Shown in pieces: positions 4,849 through 40,290 of a DNA stretch of 64,000 nucleotides. This DNA is from Peptococcaceae bacterium BRH_c8a. Its GTDB lineage: Bacteria; Bacillota; Desulfotomaculia; Desulfotomaculales; Desulfallaceae. How positions within the stretch are numbered: the first letter of the stretch is position 1; each line of letters begins with the position of its first letter. Below the pieces are notes generated by a model, which saw only the letters and a program-made list of their open reading frames with translations, was not told the origin of the DNA and did not search any database. The stretch covers positions 62,001 to 126,000 of the forward strand of contig LADP01000005.1 in the NCBI GenBank assembly GCA_000961575.1, read 5' to 3'. The position numbers and the translations under genes were made by a program.

Positions 4849-4877
4849 TTGACAGGGTGATAATTTATTTATATTAT
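4849..4877 (+). promoter_or_regulatory. Sigma-A promoter of trpE
   Basis: TTGACA at 4849-4854, a 17-nt spacer and TATTAT at 4872-4877. Transcription would start near 4884, about 20 nt before the (G/U)AG array. Confidence 0.85.
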
Positions 4878-4903: not shown

Positions 4904-4949
4904 TAGTTGAGTAGAGTAGAGACGAGTTTTTTTGTTTAGCTTAGGTGAG
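4904..4949 (+). promoter_or_regulatory. TRAP-type (G/U)AG repeat array in trpE leader
   Basis: Triplets UAG/GAG start at 4904, 4909, 4914, 4919 and 4924, and after a U-rich gap at 4937, 4942 and 4947. Within each block the period is exactly 5 nt, as in RNA bound by the 11-subunit trp RNA-binding attenuation protein (TRAP). The last GAG lies where it could pair with CUCA in the following terminator, so bound TRAP would block an antiterminator. No TRAP (mtrB) gene is in the window. Confidence 0.85.
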
Positions 4950-4971
4950 CCAGCGGTCATTTGTAATGCAG

Positions 4972-4997
4972 CGGCACTCATTTAGGTGCCGTTTTTT
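4972..4997 (+). terminator. Attenuator terminator of trpE leader
   Basis: CGGCAC (4972-4977) / GTGCCG (4986-4991) stem with an 8-nt loop and six T. The 5' arm overlaps GGC and CUCA, which can pair with GUGAGCC at 4945-4951 in an alternative antiterminator. Confidence 0.85.
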
Positions 4998-5051
4998 ATA
5001 TTTTACTGGCAGTAATAAGTTAAAAGCGTGACCCTAAAAGGAGATGATTTT

Positions 5052-6503
5052 ATGATTCAGCCGGGAGAACAGGAATACCAATCTCTGGCCAGGCAATATA
5101 ATCTGGTTCCGGTTTACACCGAGTACCTCACTGATACTGAAACGCCCATTACCCTTTTTCTCAGGCTGGCAGGTGACGGCCCGGCATGCCTGCTGGAAAG
5201 CGTTGAAGGGGGACGCCACCTGGGGCGTTATTCATTTATAGCCATGGATCCGTTGGCCACCTTTATTTCAACAAATGGCAGGGGCCGGGTGGTTTACCCC
5301 GATGGCAGAGAACAAGATGCCGACGGCCCGCCCCTGGAGGTACTGGAAAAGTTAATGAGTGGATTTAAAGTGCCCCCGGTACAGGAACTACCTCGCTTTT
5401 ATGCTGGTGCGGTAGGTTTTGTAGCTTACGATGCAGTGCGTTCCCTGGAAAAGCTGCCCGGTAACCCCGCTGATGAGATGAAAATCCCGGACTGTTTGCA
5501 GTTCCTGCCCGGGTCAGTGATAATTTTTGATCACGTGCGGCACACCGTCACTTTCGTGGTTAACTACCCCGTGGACGGGGCTGAACCGGAGGTCACTTAC
5601 AGGCGCTCGTTGGCCAGGTTGGAGCAAATGAAGGCGACCCTAAAAAAACCACTCCCGGAGCCCGACGGTTTTTCTTTGCATAGTGAAATCCAGTCGGATC
5701 TGCCCGAGGAAGAATTTGTGCGCCGGGTGCAGAAGGCGCTGGATTATATTAAGGCTGGGGACATAATCCAGGTGGTACTGTCACGCCGCTATTCCATGGG
5801 TTTCGCCGGGGATGACTTTGCCGTATACCGGCGGCTGCGCAGCGTGAATCCATCACCATACATGTTCTACTTTAACTTGGGTGATATCAAGGTAATCGGT
5901 TCCTCGCCTGAAATGCTGGTGCGAGTAGAAAACGGGATGGTGACTACCTGCCCCATTGCCGGAACCCGACCCAGGGGGAACAGCCCGGCCGAAGATACCG
6001 CTCTGGCTGAGGAAATGCTGGCCGATGAGAAGGAACGGGCTGAACACCTGATGCTAGTGGATTTGGGCCGTAATGATTTGGGGCGGGTCTGTGTTCCGGG
6101 CACCGTCCGGGTGCCCCGTTTTATGGATGTAGAGTACTTCTCTCACGTGATGCATATAGTGTCCCGGGTGGAGGGAAAACTAGGGTGCGGTACCGGCGCC
6201 TTGGGCGCATTGGGGGCCTGTTTCCCGGCGGGAACGGTTAGCGGCGCGCCCAAAGTGCGAGCCATGGAGATAATCGACGAGTTGGAACCCTATCGACGGG
6301 GCGTTTATGCCGGGGCCGCCGGGTACGTGGGGTTCAACGGTAACATGGACACCGCCATTTCCATCCGCACCCTGGTCATTAGGGGCGGCACTGCCTATAT
6401 CCAGGCCGGCGCCGGTATAGTTGCCGATTCGCAGCCTCAACTGGAATGTTTGGAGATCGCCAACAAGGCCGGGGCCATATTCCGTTCTCTGGGGCTGGAA
6501 TAA
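5052..6503 (+). CDS. trpE: Anthranilate synthase component I
   Basis: Converts chorismate plus glutamine-derived ammonia to anthranilate, the first committed step of tryptophan synthesis. The 483-aa product has the chorismate-binding signatures SPYMFYFNL, IGSSPEMLVR, PIAGTRPRG and LMLVDLGRNDLGRV. The N-terminal LLES motif (residues near 50) is the usual tryptophan feedback site. The ATG at 5052 follows AGGAG at 8 nt; a GTG at 5028 lies before the SD and is rejected. Its glutaminase partner is trpG, which has a separate promoter and leader 219 nt downstream. Expression is probably set by the TRAP attenuator upstream. Confidence 0.97.
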   Translation: MIQPGEQEYQSLARQYNLVPVYTEYLTDTETPITLFLRLAGDGPACLLESVEGGRHLGRYSFIAMDPLATFISTNGRGRVVYPDGREQDADGPPLEVLEKLMSGFKVPPVQELPRFYAGAVGFVAYDAVRSLEKLPGNPADEMKIPDCLQFLPGSVIIFDHVRHTVTFVVNYPVDGAEPEVTYRRSLARLEQMKATLKKPLPEPDGFSLHSEIQSDLPEEEFVRRVQKALDYIKAGDIIQVVLSRRYSMGFAGDDFAVYRRLRSVNPSPYMFYFNLGDIKVIGSSPEMLVRVENGMVTTCPIAGTRPRGNSPAEDTALAEEMLADEKERAEHLMLVDLGRNDLGRVCVPGTVRVPRFMDVEYFSHVMHIVSRVEGKLGCGTGALGALGACFPAGTVSGAPKVRAMEIIDELEPYRRGVYAGAAGYVGFNGNMDTAISIRTLVIRGGTAYIQAGAGIVADSQPQLECLEIANKAGAIFRSLGLE

Positions 6504-6511
6504 AAAAGTCA

Positions 6512-6540
6512 TTGACAAAAACTTTTGGCAGTAGTATAGT
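6512..6540 (+). promoter_or_regulatory. Sigma-A promoter of trpG
   Basis: TTGACA at 6512-6517, a 17-nt spacer and TATAGT at 6535-6540, starting 9 nt after the trpE stop. It gives trpG and the downstream trp genes an independent start. Confidence 0.85.
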
Positions 6541-6580
6541 CATAGTCAATTAGTAAATAACAGGTAATTTTATAGTTTTT

Positions 6581-6630
6581 GAGATTAGTTGAGTTTAGCC
6601 TAGTTTAGTCCCTAGTAGAGCTGAGATGAG
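6581..6630 (+). promoter_or_regulatory. TRAP-type (G/U)AG repeat array in trpG leader
   Basis: Ten UAG/GAG triplets start at 6581, 6586, 6591, 6596, 6601, 6606, 6613, 6618, 6623 and 6628. The spacing is 5 nt throughout except one step of 7. This is nearly a full set for the 11 RNA pockets of TRAP. The last GAG plus CGG at 6638-6640 can pair with CCG and CUCA in the terminator 5' arm, giving an antiterminator that TRAP binding would prevent. Confidence 0.9.
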
Positions 6631-6650
6631 ATACGATCGGTTTATTAATG

Positions 6651-6678
6651 CCGGCGCTCATTTGAGTGTCGGTTTTTT
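6651..6678 (+). terminator. Attenuator terminator of trpG leader
   Basis: CCGGCGCTC (6651-6659) and GAGTGTCGG (6664-6672) pair over 9 bp with two G-U pairs and a 4-nt loop, followed by six T. Its loop and arms resemble the trpE attenuator, so the two leaders may be duplicates. Confidence 0.88.
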
Positions 6679-6722
6679 GCGTTTTTTTACCGGGAATGTC
6701 CCCAACTGAGGAGGTTTTAATC

Positions 6723-7313
6723 TTGCTGCTGATGATCGATAATTACGATTCCTTTACCTATAACCTGGTGCAGTACCTTGCTCAACTGGGAGAAAAAGTG
6801 TTGGTGCGGCGGAACGACTGCATCACCGTGCCGGAAATCCATTCCTTAAGGCCCGATTACCTGGTATTGTCCCCCGGTCCGGGTATACCGGATAATGCCG
6901 GCATTATGGTCAGCGCCATCAGGGATTGTGCCGGCATTATCCCTCTGTTCGGGGTTTGCTTGGGACTACAGGCCATCGGCCGGGCCTTTGGCGGTCGAGT
7001 GGTGCGGGCTAACCGGCCCATGCATGGCAAAATATCTCTGGTTTATCATGACGGCGGAACAGTCTTTTCCGGACTTCCGTCACCCTTTAAGACAGTGCGT
7101 TATCATTCGCTGGTGGTGGAGCGGGAAAACCTGCCCAAGTGTCTTGAAATCAGCGCCTGGACCGGCGAAGGTGAAATAATGGGACTGCGGCACCGTGAAT
7201 TGCCGGTTGAAGGGGTGCAGTTTCATCCCGAGTCAATGCTCAGCGAGTACGGCATGGAACTGCTAGGCAACTTTCTTGGCGTAAATACAGCCAGGGTAAA
7301 AAGAGTCAGCTAA
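6723..7313 (+). CDS. trpG: Anthranilate synthase glutaminase component II
   Basis: Class-I glutamine amidotransferase that supplies ammonia to TrpE; in some Firmicutes it also serves 4-amino-4-deoxychorismate synthase (PabA role). It shows IDNYDSFTYNLVQYL at the N-terminus, the nucleophile-cysteine motif GVCLGLQAIG and the His-Glu motif VQFHPES. The frame is open from 6666, but that region overlaps the terminator. TTG 6723 lies 8 nt after GAGGAGG and is the best start, giving 196 aa. No separate pabA is visible in this window, so dual use is possible. Confidence 0.95.
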   Translation: MLLMIDNYDSFTYNLVQYLAQLGEKVLVRRNDCITVPEIHSLRPDYLVLSPGPGIPDNAGIMVSAIRDCAGIIPLFGVCLGLQAIGRAFGGRVVRANRPMHGKISLVYHDGGTVFSGLPSPFKTVRYHSLVVERENLPKCLEISAWTGEGEIMGLRHRELPVEGVQFHPESMLSEYGMELLGNFLGVNTARVKRVS

Positions 7314-7315
7314 AA

Positions 7316-7373
7316 GAATTTCAACCATGCAGCAGCTGGTGACTGACAACCAAGACCGGGTTTGTTGAAATTC
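7316..7373 (+). other. Structured trpG-trpD spacer, 10-bp inverted repeat
   Basis: GAATTTCAAC (7316-7325) is repeated inverted as GTTGAAATTC (7364-7373), enclosing 38 nt with a smaller TGGT/ACCA hairpin. There is no T-run. It ends 3 nt before the possible TRAP site at the trpD ribosome-binding site and may be an RNA processing or translation-control structure. Confidence 0.5.
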
Positions 7374-7376
7374 TCA

Positions 7377-7399
7377 GAGATGAGAGGAGGAGAGCTTAG
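7377..7399 (+). promoter_or_regulatory. Possible TRAP site overlapping trpD SD and start
   Basis: GAG/UAG triplets begin at 7377, 7382, 7387, 7392 and 7397, exactly 5 nt apart. They run through the AGGAGG SD and end on the first base of the GTG start. Five triplets are few for tight TRAP binding, and a purine-rich SD can create some by chance. Confidence 0.45.
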
Positions 7400-8436
7400 T
7401 GTTCAAGGATTTGCTTAACAAAGTGGCGCGGGGAGAGAATTTGTCTGAAGCCGAAGCGTCCGGGGCTATGGAGCTAATCATGGAGGGATGCGCCACGCCG
7501 GCCCAGATAGCCGGACTGCTTACGGCGCTAAAGCTAAAAGGGGAAACCATAGATGAAATCACCGGTTTTGCCCGGGTAATGCGCAGCAAGGCCACCCCGG
7601 TGACCAGCAGTCACCCGCTGCTGGTGGACACCTGCGGCACTGGCGGGGACGGGGCCAACACATTCAATATTTCCACTGTCACGGCGCTGGTGCTGGCCGG
7701 AGCCGGGGTTAAAGTAGCTAAACACGGTAACCGTTCGGTCTCCAGTCGCTGTGGTAGCGCTGATGTGCTGGAGGCACTGGGAGTCAATCTTGCATTGGAA
7801 CCCGGGGAAGTGGCAGACTGTTTGGACCAGGTGGGCATTGCCTTCCTGTATGCTCCTGTATTGCACGGGGCTATGAAGCATGCCGCCGGTCCGCGCCGGG
7901 AACTGGGCTTTCGGACGGTGTTCAATATTCTTGGCCCGCTAACCAACCCGGCAGGTGCCCGGGCGCAGGTGCTGGGCGTATACAGTGCCTCGCTGGTACG
8001 GGTGATGGCCGAGGTGCTGCTGCGGTTGGGAGCGGAACGGGCCTTTGTGGTGCACAGTTCCGGCGGGTTGGACGAAATGTCGCCTGTCGGGCCGGCAGCA
8101 GTTTGTGAGATCAGAAGCGGCCAAGTCTATGAATACGTTTTTGACCCTGCAGGCTATGGATTTGCTAATGTAGGGGTCGAGGAATTATCCGGCGGTTCTC
8201 CCGCGGAGAACGCTGTTATTGCACGAAATATACTGACTGGTGAGCCCGGGCCAAAACGGGACGCGGTACTGATGAACGCCGCTTTAGGAATTATGGCGGC
8301 GGGTGCGGCTAAGGACTTTACCACCGGGCTGGCACTGGCTGCCCGGAGCATCGATAACGGGCTGGCCCGGAACAAGTTGGAAGAATTAATCCGGTTTACC
8401 ACTGGGTGCCGAAAAGCCAGGGCGGCCGGGTTATGA
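7399..8436 (+). CDS. trpD: Anthranilate phosphoribosyltransferase
   Basis: Transfers phosphoribose from PRPP to anthranilate, the second step of tryptophan synthesis. The 345-aa product is of normal length and shows VDTCGTGGDGANTFNIST (PRPP site), AKHGNRSVSSRCGSADVLEALG and GPRRELGFRTVFNILGPLTNP. The GTG start follows AGGAGG at a normal distance. It is translationally coupled to trpC, since its TGA overlaps the trpC ATG. Confidence 0.97.
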   Translation: MFKDLLNKVARGENLSEAEASGAMELIMEGCATPAQIAGLLTALKLKGETIDEITGFARVMRSKATPVTSSHPLLVDTCGTGGDGANTFNISTVTALVLAGAGVKVAKHGNRSVSSRCGSADVLEALGVNLALEPGEVADCLDQVGIAFLYAPVLHGAMKHAAGPRRELGFRTVFNILGPLTNPAGARAQVLGVYSASLVRVMAEVLLRLGAERAFVVHSSGGLDEMSPVGPAAVCEIRSGQVYEYVFDPAGYGFANVGVEELSGGSPAENAVIARNILTGEPGPKRDAVLMNAALGIMAAGAAKDFTTGLALAARSIDNGLARNKLEELIRFTTGCRKARAAGL

Positions 8437-9248
8437 AACACGACATATTACGTAGAATTGTAGCCTTTAAAAAAGAGGAAGTGGCAGCGGCCCGGCGGCA
8501 GCGGCCGCTGCAGCAAATAAAAGAGCGCTTGGATGATGCGCCGCCGGCCCGTAGTTTTGCAGACCCGCTGCGGCTACCCGGGGAAGTGGCCCTGATTGCC
8601 GAAGTAAAAAGGCGCTCCCCGTCCCGGGGATTAATCCGGGCGGACTTTAACCTGGTCAAAATTGTGACCGCCTACCGGGATGCCGGGGCCGACGCCATTT
8701 CAGTGCTTACCGACAGCGAATTTTTTGGCGGTTCCCATGATTACCTGGCTGCAGCCAGGCGGATAACCGGCCAGCCGCTGTTGCGCAAAGATTTTATCAT
8801 ATATGACTACCAGGTATATGAATCCCGGCTGCTGGGGGCCGATGCAGTGCTGTTGATTGCCGGGATCTTGCCCGGTGATACGCTGGGCGAGTTGATTGAG
8901 CTTACCCGCAGCCTGGGCATGGAAGCGCTGGTGGAGACCCGCACGGCCGAAGAAATTGAACGGGCCTTGGTGGTTGGGGCAAAGGTAGTGGGCATCAATA
9001 ATCGCGACCTGCGGACTTTCCAGGTGGACTTAAACACCACGATAGAGTTGATGGGCCACATTAATGACCCTAGTGTTACAGTGGTCAGTGAGAGCGGTAT
9101 CCGAACCAGCTCAGACATTGAACGGCTGGGTGCCCGGGGAGTTCACGCCGTGTTGGTGGGCGAGACCCTGATGGCAGGTAGTGACCTGCGGGCCGGTGTC
9201 CGGTATCTTAAAGGCTTGGCAAGCGAGAGGGCGGCGGTCGAAGCGTGA
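8433..9248 (+). CDS. trpC: Indole-3-glycerol-phosphate synthase
   Basis: Closes the indole ring from carboxyphenylaminodeoxyribulose phosphate. TIM-barrel motifs are clear: LIAEVKRRSPSRG, SVLTDSEFFGGS, LLRKDFIIYDYQVYES, GINNRDLRTF and VVSESGI. The ATG at 8433 overlaps the trpD stop (ATGA); a GTG at 8406 in the same frame is inside trpD and less likely. The product is 271 aa. Confidence 0.96.
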   Translation: MKHDILRRIVAFKKEEVAAARRQRPLQQIKERLDDAPPARSFADPLRLPGEVALIAEVKRRSPSRGLIRADFNLVKIVTAYRDAGADAISVLTDSEFFGGSHDYLAAARRITGQPLLRKDFIIYDYQVYESRLLGADAVLLIAGILPGDTLGELIELTRSLGMEALVETRTAEEIERALVVGAKVVGINNRDLRTFQVDLNTTIELMGHINDPSVTVVSESGIRTSSDIERLGARGVHAVLVGETLMAGSDLRAGVRYLKGLASERAAVEA

Positions 9249-9868
9249 TTACGAACACGCCGGTGCGGGTGAAAATATGCGGCATCAGCGATCCCAAGAC
9301 AGCGCTGGCGGCGACCGAAGCAGGGGCGGACGCCCTGGGGTTTGTATTCGCTCCCAGTCGCCGGCAGGTGACACCTGAGCAGGCCCGGGCCATTATTGAA
9401 ACCCTGCCGCCCTTTGTGGCTCGGGTGGGGGTGTTCGTGAACGCCGCGCCAACCAGGGTGACCGAAATTGCTTTACATTGCGGGTTAACTGCGGTGCAGT
9501 TAAGCGGTGATGAGCCGCCCGGTTATGACGCCTTGTTGAACATCCCGCTAATTCGGACGCTGCGGGTGGGCAACGGTCGGCCGCTGCCCGACCTCAAAGA
9601 ATACCGGGCCGGGGCCTTCCTGTTCGATACGTACCGGGAAGGAAGTTACGGCGGCACCGGCACCGCCTTTGACTGGTCTTTGTTAAAGAAAATAAATTGT
9701 CCCGGACCGCTAATCCTGGCGGGGGGGCTTGATGCTGTCAACGTACGTGAGGCTGTGCGCCTGGTAAGGCCTTACGCCGTGGATGTCTCCGGCGGAGTGG
9801 AAACCGGCGGGCGCAAGGATATCCAAAAAATCAAGGAGTTTATCAACTTGGCCAAGGGGGTTAATTAA
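9245..9868 (+). CDS. trpF: Phosphoribosylanthranilate isomerase
   Basis: Catalyses the Amadori rearrangement of phosphoribosylanthranilate. The 207-aa product has KICGISDPKTAL with the catalytic cysteine, LGFVFAPSRRQV, DTYREGSYGGTG and a C-terminal LAGGLDAVNVREAV/VDVSGGVE phosphate-binding region. The GTG start overlaps the trpC TGA (GTGA). Confidence 0.96.
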   Translation: MITNTPVRVKICGISDPKTALAATEAGADALGFVFAPSRRQVTPEQARAIIETLPPFVARVGVFVNAAPTRVTEIALHCGLTAVQLSGDEPPGYDALLNIPLIRTLRVGNGRPLPDLKEYRAGAFLFDTYREGSYGGTGTAFDWSLLKKINCPGPLILAGGLDAVNVREAVRLVRPYAVDVSGGVETGGRKDIQKIKEFINLAKGVN

Positions 9869-11140
9869 GTGAGTACGGTAGCGCATAAGGTAGCAACGGA
9901 ACACGCACAAAAAACGGTTACCGGTAACTGCGGGGCGGCAAATACGGCTTTACCTGACGACCGTGGTTATTATGGCGGTTTCGGGGGCACATTTGTGCCC
10001 GAAACAATTATGCCCGCACTGGAGGAACTAATTGACGCCTACCGCCGTTTTCGGGACGACAGTGATTTCAGGCAGGAACTGCAGTATTATCTGCAGCATT
10101 ACGTAGGCCGGCCTTCACCGCTGTATTTTGCCCGTGGTCTTACCGAATATTTGGGCGGCGCCCGGATTTACCTCAAACGGGAGGATTTGAACCACACCGG
10201 GGCGCACAAAATTAACAACACCGTGGGCCAGGTGCTTTTGGCCAGACGGATGGGCAAACAGCGGATTATCGCCGAGACCGGCGCCGGGCAGCACGGAGTG
10301 GCTACCGCCACCGTGGCGGCCATGTTTGACCTGCAGTGCGCTATCTACATGGGCGAGGAAGATATCCGCCGCCAATCCCTGAACGTTTTCCGCATGCGCC
10401 TTTTAGGGGCTAAGGTGGTACCGGTAACATCGGGCAGCCGCACCTTAAAGGACGCCATGAACGAGGCGATGCGGGACTGGGTAACCAACATTGACGATAC
10501 CTACTACTTGATCGGCTCGGTGGCCGGGCCGCATCCTTATCCCTCACTGGTCAGGGATTTCCAAAAGGTCATCGGTGAGGAGGCCCGCCGCCAGATAGTA
10601 GAACAGGCGGGGCGCCTGCCGGATTACGTGGTGGCTTGCGTCGGCGGGGGCAGCAACGCCATGGGTATATTTCACCCCTTTATTGAAGATGGCGGAGTAA
10701 ACCTGATCGGTGTGGAAGCCGCCGGACACGGACTGGATACCGACCTGCACTCCGCCACCCTTTCCAAGGGCCGCCCGGGAGTGCTGCACGGGTCGCTCAG
10801 CTATCTGTTGCAGGACGGAGACGGTCAGGTGATACCGGTGCACTCCATCTCAGCGGGCTTGGACTACCCGGGGGTGGGGCCGGAACACAGTTACCTGAAG
10901 GATTCTGGACGGGCCGTTTACGTTGCCGCCACCGACCGGGAAGCGCTAGACGCCTTTAAAATTCTGTGCCGTACCGAGGGCATCATCCCGGCCCTGGAAA
11001 GCGCCCACGCCCTGGCCGGGGCGGTTCGTCTGGCACCTGAACTGTCCCGGGACGAGATCATCATTGTTAATCTCTCGGGCCGTGGCGACAAGGACGTGCA
11101 CACAGTGGCCGAAGAAATGGGGGTGTCATTAAATGAATAA
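9869..11140 (+). CDS. trpB: Tryptophan synthase beta chain
   Basis: PLP enzyme that condenses indole with serine. Motifs include [14 protein letters not shown] (PLP lysine), [21 protein letters not shown] and GVEAAGHG. At 423 aa it carries about 30 extra N-terminal residues of low complexity before the conserved [13 protein letters not shown]. The GTG start abuts the trpF stop and follows AAGGGGG at 8 nt. It overlaps trpA by 8 nt. Confidence 0.97.
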
Positions 11141-11978
11141 AAACACTTTAAACAGCCGCCTGGCCACAGTGTTAAAAGAAGCGCTCCTGCGCGGCGAAAA
11201 GGGATTGATACCTTACATCATGGCCGGCGACCCCGACCTGGATACCACGGTTGAGCTAGCCGTCGCCATGGCACAAGCCGGAGCCGATGTACTGGAATTA
11301 GGGGTGCCCTTTTCCGACCCGGTGGCCGACGGACCGGCCATCCAGGCTGCGGCCCAGCGTTCCCTGGCGTCCGGGACTATACTCAAGGGTATACTGGAAG
11401 CGGTGGGAGAAATCAGGCGGCGCAGCGATATTCCGCTGGTGCTGATGACCTATTACAATCCTGTTTACCAATACGGAGTTAAACAGTTTATTAATGACGC
11501 AGCAAGGGTGGGGGTAAATGGTCTAATCGTGCCCGACCTGCCGCCCGAAGAGTGTGCTGAACTGCTGCAGGCCGGAGACGCCAGCGGTGTGGATCTGATC
11601 CCCTTGGTGACACCCAACACACCAGCTCGGCGTCTAGAGATGATTGCCCGGCGGGCCCGGGGTTTTGTTTACTGTGTCTCAGTGACCGGAGTTACAGGGG
11701 AACGAAATAGCATTGCCACCGGCCTGCCGGCCATGACTTCAGCGGTGCGCAAGTTTACCACGCTGCCGGTGGCAGTGGGGTTTGGCATCTCCACTCCGGA
11801 GCAGGCTGCCGAAACAGCCCGGTATTGCGATGCCGTAGTGGTGGGCAGCGCACTGGTGAAAACCATAGCCGAACGGGCAGGTTCCTCGGAATTGGTATTG
11901 GCTGTGGCCCGCCAAGTGCGGGAATTGAAAGACGCCCTTACCGGGCGGGAGGTGAAGAAAATTGACACCGCCATATAA
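11133..11978 (+). CDS. trpA: Tryptophan synthase alpha chain
   Basis: Releases indole from indole-3-glycerol phosphate and channels it to TrpB. The TIM-barrel motifs [42 protein letters not shown] and [10 protein letters not shown] are present, and 281 aa is slightly long. Its 3' end overlaps the DAHP synthase gene by 17 nt, so the two are coupled. Confidence 0.97.
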
Positions 11979-39826: not shown

Positions 39827-39854
39827 TGTTACATATTATTAAACCTGAAATTCA

Positions 39855-40158
39855 GTGAAGGGGAAAAGTAGGCTGGAAACAGGTCCCCAGGGAGGGAATG
39901 TCACCGACTGGAAGCATTCCCGGCCATGACCATCTGAAGTTCTCCCCGGAGAAGCCGGCTGAAATTTATAGGCGTTCCGAACATCCGCTTATATTGATTA
40001 GGCTTGGACGTATTCTTCCCACGTTACAGGGAAGAGGATATCGGAATTTATTCCCTTACTCCTACCGAGTGGATCTATATGTAAACAATATGGATCAACC
40101 GGGGTGGTAACGCGGTGGCAACGCCTCTCGTCCCTGTACGAGGGGTTTATTTGTTTTC
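39855..40158 (+). promoter_or_regulatory. Phe T-box leader: stem I and first antiterminator/terminator
   Basis: Stem I starts at GGGG (39860-39863) with an AGTA motif and pairs with CCCC (39944-39947). The specifier loop carries UUC at 39940-39942, a Phe codon. Distal AG-bulge and loop motifs (AGGGAGGGAATG, GACTGGAAG) are visible. A T-box core GGGTGGTAACGCGG follows (40102-40115), then terminator CTCTCGT/ACGAGGGG with a T-rich tail. Confidence 0.85.
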
Positions 40159-40217
40159 TGCGAGGAATTTTCCCGTATCTTTTTATGAGGGGGCCTGTAT
40201 TTATCTACGGGTCAACC

Positions 40218-40290
40218 AGGGTGGTACCGCGGAAGCAACCCGTCGCTTTCGTCCCTGTATGGGGATGAGGTGACGGGTTTATTATATTTA
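40218..40290 (+). promoter_or_regulatory. Second T-box antiterminator/terminator module
   Basis: AGGGTGGTACCGCGG at 40218-40232 is a perfect T-box motif, followed by terminator ACCCGTC (40238-40244) / GACGGGT (40272-40278). No second stem I fits in the ~70 nt between modules, so both seem to share one specifier. Confidence 0.85.

Follow-up and report, generated by a model that had tools for sequence, protein, structure and literature searches.

Organization of the trp cluster

The stretch of DNA analysed here (the 64 kb window) carries trpE, trpG, trpD, trpC, trpF, trpB, trpA and a DAHP synthase gene, all consecutive. On the forward strand, trpE occupies positions 5052–6503, trpG, encoding the amidotransferase of anthranilate synthase, positions 6723–7313 with a TTG start at 6723 and a Shine-Dalgarno (SD) sequence GGAGG at 6710–6714, and trpD, trpC, trpF, trpB and trpA together positions 7399–11978; the DAHP synthase gene after trpA begins at 11962. 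The identities of trpE, trpG and trpD were obtained by tblastn against relatives, and those of trpC, trpF, trpB and trpA from their own sequence. Two promoter-leader-terminator units were recognized in the cluster, one ahead of trpE (leader 1) and one ahead of trpG (leader 2), the latter housed in a trpE-trpG gap of 219 nt. Both appear to be targets of TRAP, the ring protein familiar from textbooks as a regulator that binds RNA and studied chiefly in Bacillus. A second complete promoter-TRAP-terminator leader before trpG had been proposed in a first-pass annotation, and its coordinates proved correct.

Arrays of (G/U)AG triplets

Leader 2 contains eleven (G/U)AG triplets (array 2, 6573–6630, forward strand), not ten as first counted, which start at 6573, 6581, 6586, 6591, 6596, 6601, 6606, 6613, 6618, 6623 and 6628. 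Two of the start-to-start steps are wider (8 and 7 nt) and the rest are 5 nt. When the intergenic sequence was shuffled 5000 times with dinucleotides preserved, the longest chain averaged 2.4 triplets with a maximum of 7, and no shuffle reached eleven (0/5000). Moreover, array 2 is the sole chain of at least six triplets on either strand of the whole window, and it is conserved in the family. It thus has the about 7–11 short-spaced (G/U)AG triplets in leader RNA that mark TRAP targets, and at least seven triplets permit stable TRAP binding (PMC4027176).

In the trpE leader, array 1 (4904–4949, forward strand) comprises 8 (G/U)AG triplets: five at a 5-nt period, a 13-nt step, and then three. 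Taken alone it is statistically weaker, 22 of 5000 shuffles reaching eight under a looser spacing rule, and the case for it as a putative TRAP site rests on conservation. Upstream of trpE in one relative (L035, genome G343), the trpE-leader array seems to be broken by about 150 nt of inserted sequence.

A whole-genome search for five triplets at an exact 5-nt period matched only at the start of trpD, in the leaders of trpE and trpG, and in one TAGTT microsatellite, and the reversed pattern gave zero matches in the whole genome. Runs of at least four triplets at this period were present in the window's genome only in the trp cluster and at three other places, two of them TAGTT microsatellites and the third an isolated match; other TRAP targets there are therefore irregularly spaced or absent. 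One (TAGTT)n microsatellite (L131, G000:C35:55640-55697), apparently non-coding, presents about eleven TAG at perfect TRAP spacing; it could bind TRAP and is probably a chance simple repeat.

Promoters, terminators and antiterminators

As expected of a TRAP-dependent transcription attenuator, array 2 is preceded by a predicted promoter, TTGACA-17-TATAGT (promoter 2, 6512–6540, forward strand; TTGACA at 6512–6517, TATAGT at 6535–6540), with a predicted start near 6547. The trpE counterpart (promoter 1, TTGACA-17-TATTAT, 4849–4877, forward strand) keeps both hexamers and the distance between them in several members of the family. The two were the top two promoter matches in the first 16 kb.

Downstream of array 2 lies terminator 2 (6650–6679, forward strand), a 10-pair stem GCCGGCGCTC-ATTT-GAGTGTCGGT at 6650–6673 followed by a T-run at 6674–6679. 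Antiterminator 2 (6624–6663, forward strand) shares bases with both the final array 2 triplets and terminator 2: GAGATGAG, which holds the final triplets, is paired with CTCATTT from the 5′ arm of the terminator, and TCGGT and GCCGG form an inner helix. Likewise, CTCATTT in the 5′ arm of terminator 1 in the trpE leader (4970–4999, forward strand; 4970–4993 in a narrower delimitation) can pair with the last array 1 triplets, GGTGAG, as an antiterminator. In leader 2 the 3′ triplets thus form part of an antiterminator that is incompatible with an intrinsic terminator, as in TRAP-dependent attenuators; 36 related leaders were aligned. Across 47 leaders, the terminator stem has on average nine uninterrupted pairs and a T-rich tail behind them, and several stem positions change with pairing mostly retained. 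In the window's trpG leader, GGGAATGTCCCCAAC (6692–6706) looks like a remnant of a GGGGACA...TGTCCCC element that recurs in relatives' trp leaders (L032, L148).

In RNA folding, nascent leader 2 up to 6664 adopted the antiterminator, and the full leader, or a leader with its array masked as single-stranded, adopted the terminator. At equilibrium the terminator was favoured even without TRAP, with a probability near 1, and we therefore infer that regulation must depend on the antiterminator forming first during transcription. The shuffle z-score of antiterminator 2 in the window was moderate (-2.1). Since the antiterminator contact pairs are nearly invariant, covariation is no test of them, and a covariation count in the inner helix was abandoned because its position and length vary across the order. 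The combination AGCTKAGRTGAG-N12-42-CTCATTT is a specific signature, present in 28 of 113 genomes of the order and 25 of 398 phylum-sampled genomes; its reversed control had zero matches in any genome of either set.

TRAP and other regulators

The genome encodes TRAP, as a TRAP-dependent attenuator requires, in a single copy of mtrB (PF02081, E 6.8e-41) with dnaE-like and pfkA-like reading frames, one on each side. Residues 9–74 of MtrB align to solved TRAP structures, and the SEKL and KIRG motifs, home of the RNA-contact residues, are retained; these residues have been named as Glu36, Lys37, Lys56 and Arg58 (PMC4027176). TRAP genes were found in 200 of the 398 sampled phylum genomes, including all 15 of this order within that sample. 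No anti-TRAP was detected among 16 genomes of the family, and weak matches elsewhere in the order were mostly short stretches within frames of about 380 residues.

T-box control of the trp cluster was rejected, as none of 16 T-box matches genome-wide falls there. At 39846–40256 the window holds a T-box leader (92.7 bits, just below the gathering score) and, after it, another T-box match that is partial and limited to the antiterminator-terminator part. The genes downstream of this doubled T-box are a second DAHP synthase gene (40304) and a pheA-like one, so that the window has another doubled attenuator.

Conservation and origin of leader 2

Leader 2, with its promoter, array, antiterminator and terminator before trpG, is present in all 11 genomes that have the trp cluster within this family of sulfate-reducing-type Firmicutes; the remaining five members have at most a distant trpE and lack the leader 2 arrangement. 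No second leader was seen in the trp loci read from the rest of the order, where trpE-trpG spacing is mostly 10–60 nt. The synteny comparison called for in the first-pass annotation thus places the second leader throughout the cluster-bearing members of one family. Matches in a TrpG scan of genome contigs came mostly from unrelated phyla; the single one from the family was Desulfotruncus alcoholivorax (Desulfallaceae), whose trp locus has the same leader sequences as G410. In strain DSM 16058 of this species the locus (L148) has leader 1 as well as leader 2. For leader 2, the analysis directly establishes its sequence elements and how far they are conserved, and that the genome has TRAP.

Two attenuators in series had also been taken as a sign of leader duplication. 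That leader 1 was recently copied to give leader 2 is unsupported, as the two leaders of one genome (similarity 0.440) are no closer than leaders of different genomes (0.435). If leader 2 was born by duplication, the event would be older than the family; the data also allow the alternative that leader 2 is an older form that was kept and leader 1 has changed. Similarity to the trpE leaders of other families is 0.476 for leader 2 and 0.440 for leader 1.

Leader 2 as a probable independent transcription attenuator

We consider it very probable that leader 2 is a self-contained TRAP-dependent transcription attenuator that has a sigma-A-type promoter of its own and makes control of trpGDCFBA independent of trpE. 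From the sequence we infer that the promoter is used, that TRAP binds and that termination responds to tryptophan, as well as whatever effect there is on trpD. At low tryptophan, the last (G/U)AG triplets of nascent leader 2 would pair with the 5′ arm of the terminator, forming the antiterminator and letting RNA polymerase enter trpG. At high tryptophan, Trp-loaded TRAP would wrap the eleven triplets, no antiterminator would form, and transcription would halt at 6674–6679. Transcripts from the trpE promoter that read through trpE would also encounter terminator 2, so that trpG and the downstream trpD, trpC, trpF, trpB and trpA are predicted to be gated by leader 2 no matter which promoter they are transcribed from, and trpE by leader 1 alone. 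Separate tuning of TrpE and of the remaining enzymes, as suggested at the outset, is the natural reading of two such predicted leaders in series.

The independence of leader 2 hinges on promoter 2. Promoter-like hexamers are no proof of a promoter, as 28 such pairs were found in 16 kb where 14 were expected, and leader 2 could be an internal attenuator only, a second serial checkpoint with no functional promoter at 6512 and all transcription coming from the trpE promoter. This we regard as unlikely. The TTGACA-17-TATAGT sequence proposed for trpG was confirmed and matches the consensus at 11 of 12 positions, and its -35 TTGACA and 17-nt spacer are invariant in 11 of 11 family genomes with the trp cluster, although the distance from trpE to leader 2 ranges from about 8 to more than 150 nt. 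Furthermore, two chemotaxis-receptor-like open reading frames on the opposite strand part trpE from trpG in genome G418, yet trpG retains promoter, array, antiterminator and terminator; leader 2 therefore needs its own promoter there. The G418 arrangement is the strongest argument that the predicted promoter 2 works by itself.

Less probable still is that TRAP acts at trpG mainly through translation, with the ribosome-binding site of trpG on the read-through RNA blocked or hidden. This is the mode known from B. subtilis, where the trp operon is attenuated by TRAP at a single point and the protein blocks ribosome binding at trpG, trpP and ycbK (PMC11255114), in agreement with the contrast drawn in the first-pass annotation; moreover, two genomes of a sister family (L042, L044) carry triplets directly over the trpG start in place of a second leader. 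In the window, however, about 80 nt separate the end of array 2 from the trpG SD, an interval that holds an intact terminator and its T-run, and the trpG start has no array, its longest chain being 1. Finally, that leader 2 is a relict or simple duplicate without a regulatory role of its own can be practically dismissed: leaders 1 and 2 do have their layout and terminator core in common, but leader 2 is conserved in the family at least as well as leader 1 (0.586 versus 0.503), and array 2 is the longest in the window, whereas a relict array would decay.

A TRAP-like site at the start of trpD

Besides the two leaders, the cluster has a third TRAP-like site that was missed in the first-pass annotation. 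Array 3 (7377–7399, forward strand), in the sequence GAGatGAGagGAGgaGAGctTAGtg at 7377–7401, consists of five triplets at an exact 5-nt period over the trpD SD, the last of which overlaps the GTG start at 7399. Triplets thus cover both SD and start codon, as in the TRAP-regulated ribosome-binding sites of the trpG/trpP/ycbK type. The site recurs in the family, and a looser form is found across the order; some relatives have 6–7 triplets when steps of 5–6 nt are allowed. Among order loci, chains of at least three triplets at the gene start occur in 38 of 77 for trpD, 0 of 65 for trpE and 3 of 85 for trpG. TRAP control of trpD translation, which may add a weaker layer to the control by leader 2, is a reasonable but weak prediction, because the five triplets of the window fall short of the seven or more reported for stable binding. 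Directly 5′ of this site, an inverted repeat GAATTTCAAC...GTTGAAATTC occupies the trpG-trpD gap (7318–7376).

Comparison with known TRAP systems

The predicted leader 2 resembles the leader of the B. subtilis trpEDCFBA operon (PMC4027176, PMC3913778), which has a promoter, eleven (G/U)AG triplets, an antiterminator overlapping the 3′ triplets and a terminator, together with a TRAP gene. In contrast to the single attenuator before trpE in B. subtilis, two are found here in series, the second with its own predicted promoter before trpG. As in B. subtilis, trpG is predicted to be under TRAP separately from trpE, but where TRAP covers the ribosome-binding site of B. subtilis trpG and acts on translation (PMC11255114), a transcription attenuator is predicted here; it is the trpD site that resembles the ribosome-blocking type, although with only five triplets. 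The working parts are those of known TRAP attenuation, and what is new is the predicted arrangement, an independent trpG promoter-attenuator in series with that of trpE. No description of such an arrangement, or of TRAP leaders in this bacterial group, was found in the literature searched, the reach of which stopped short of the comparative Gram-positive trp surveys of Merino, Yanofsky and co-workers.

One protein reading two attenuators, of 8 and 11 triplets, and possibly a translational site would let nature itself show how sensitivity depends on the number of triplets and the spacing between them. The arrangement raises the question of why a cell would separately control TrpE and TrpG, subunits of one enzyme, and illustrates how a regulatory cassette can split an operon into separately tuned units.

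TRAP leaders beyond the trp cluster

Relatives also have TRAP arrays and terminators ahead of a second trpDC cluster, trpB, aroF, a pabA-like gene, a TrpP-like transporter, an NCS1-type permease, a TrpX-like ABC transporter, an aldehyde:ferredoxin oxidoreductase gene and a DctP-type transporter; these genes were named by sequence resemblance, the trp and aroF ones being matched by tblastn. Two genomes of another family (G070, G317) have two TRAP leaders in series, ahead of aroF and ahead of trpE and about 1.1 kb apart. Like the window, this pair, identified in the present analysis, places two leader cassettes in one tryptophan-related cluster, but trpG is uninvolved; serial TRAP leaders have therefore probably arisen more than once. 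We see an even chance that a broader picture holds, in which TRAP controls the trp cluster of the window's family three times over (by attenuation ahead of trpE, through a separate promoter-attenuator ahead of trpG, and by directly blocking trpD translation) and the TRAP leader is a modular cassette of Bacillota, sometimes serial, placed before trpE, trpG, trpB, aroF, tryptophan-uptake genes, a DctP-type transporter and aldehyde:ferredoxin oxidoreductase, giving a TRAP regulon larger than that of B. subtilis.

Leaders L303 and L304 lie ahead of ferredoxin-like and aldehyde:ferredoxin oxidoreductase-like genes, and at L303 this type of leader adjoins a trpB-type gene with a TRAP leader of its own. 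In several families, TRAP-protein leaders (L340, L353, L354, L358) stand ahead of genes for DctP-type (TRAP-type) transporters, which suggests uptake of tryptophan or a related compound.
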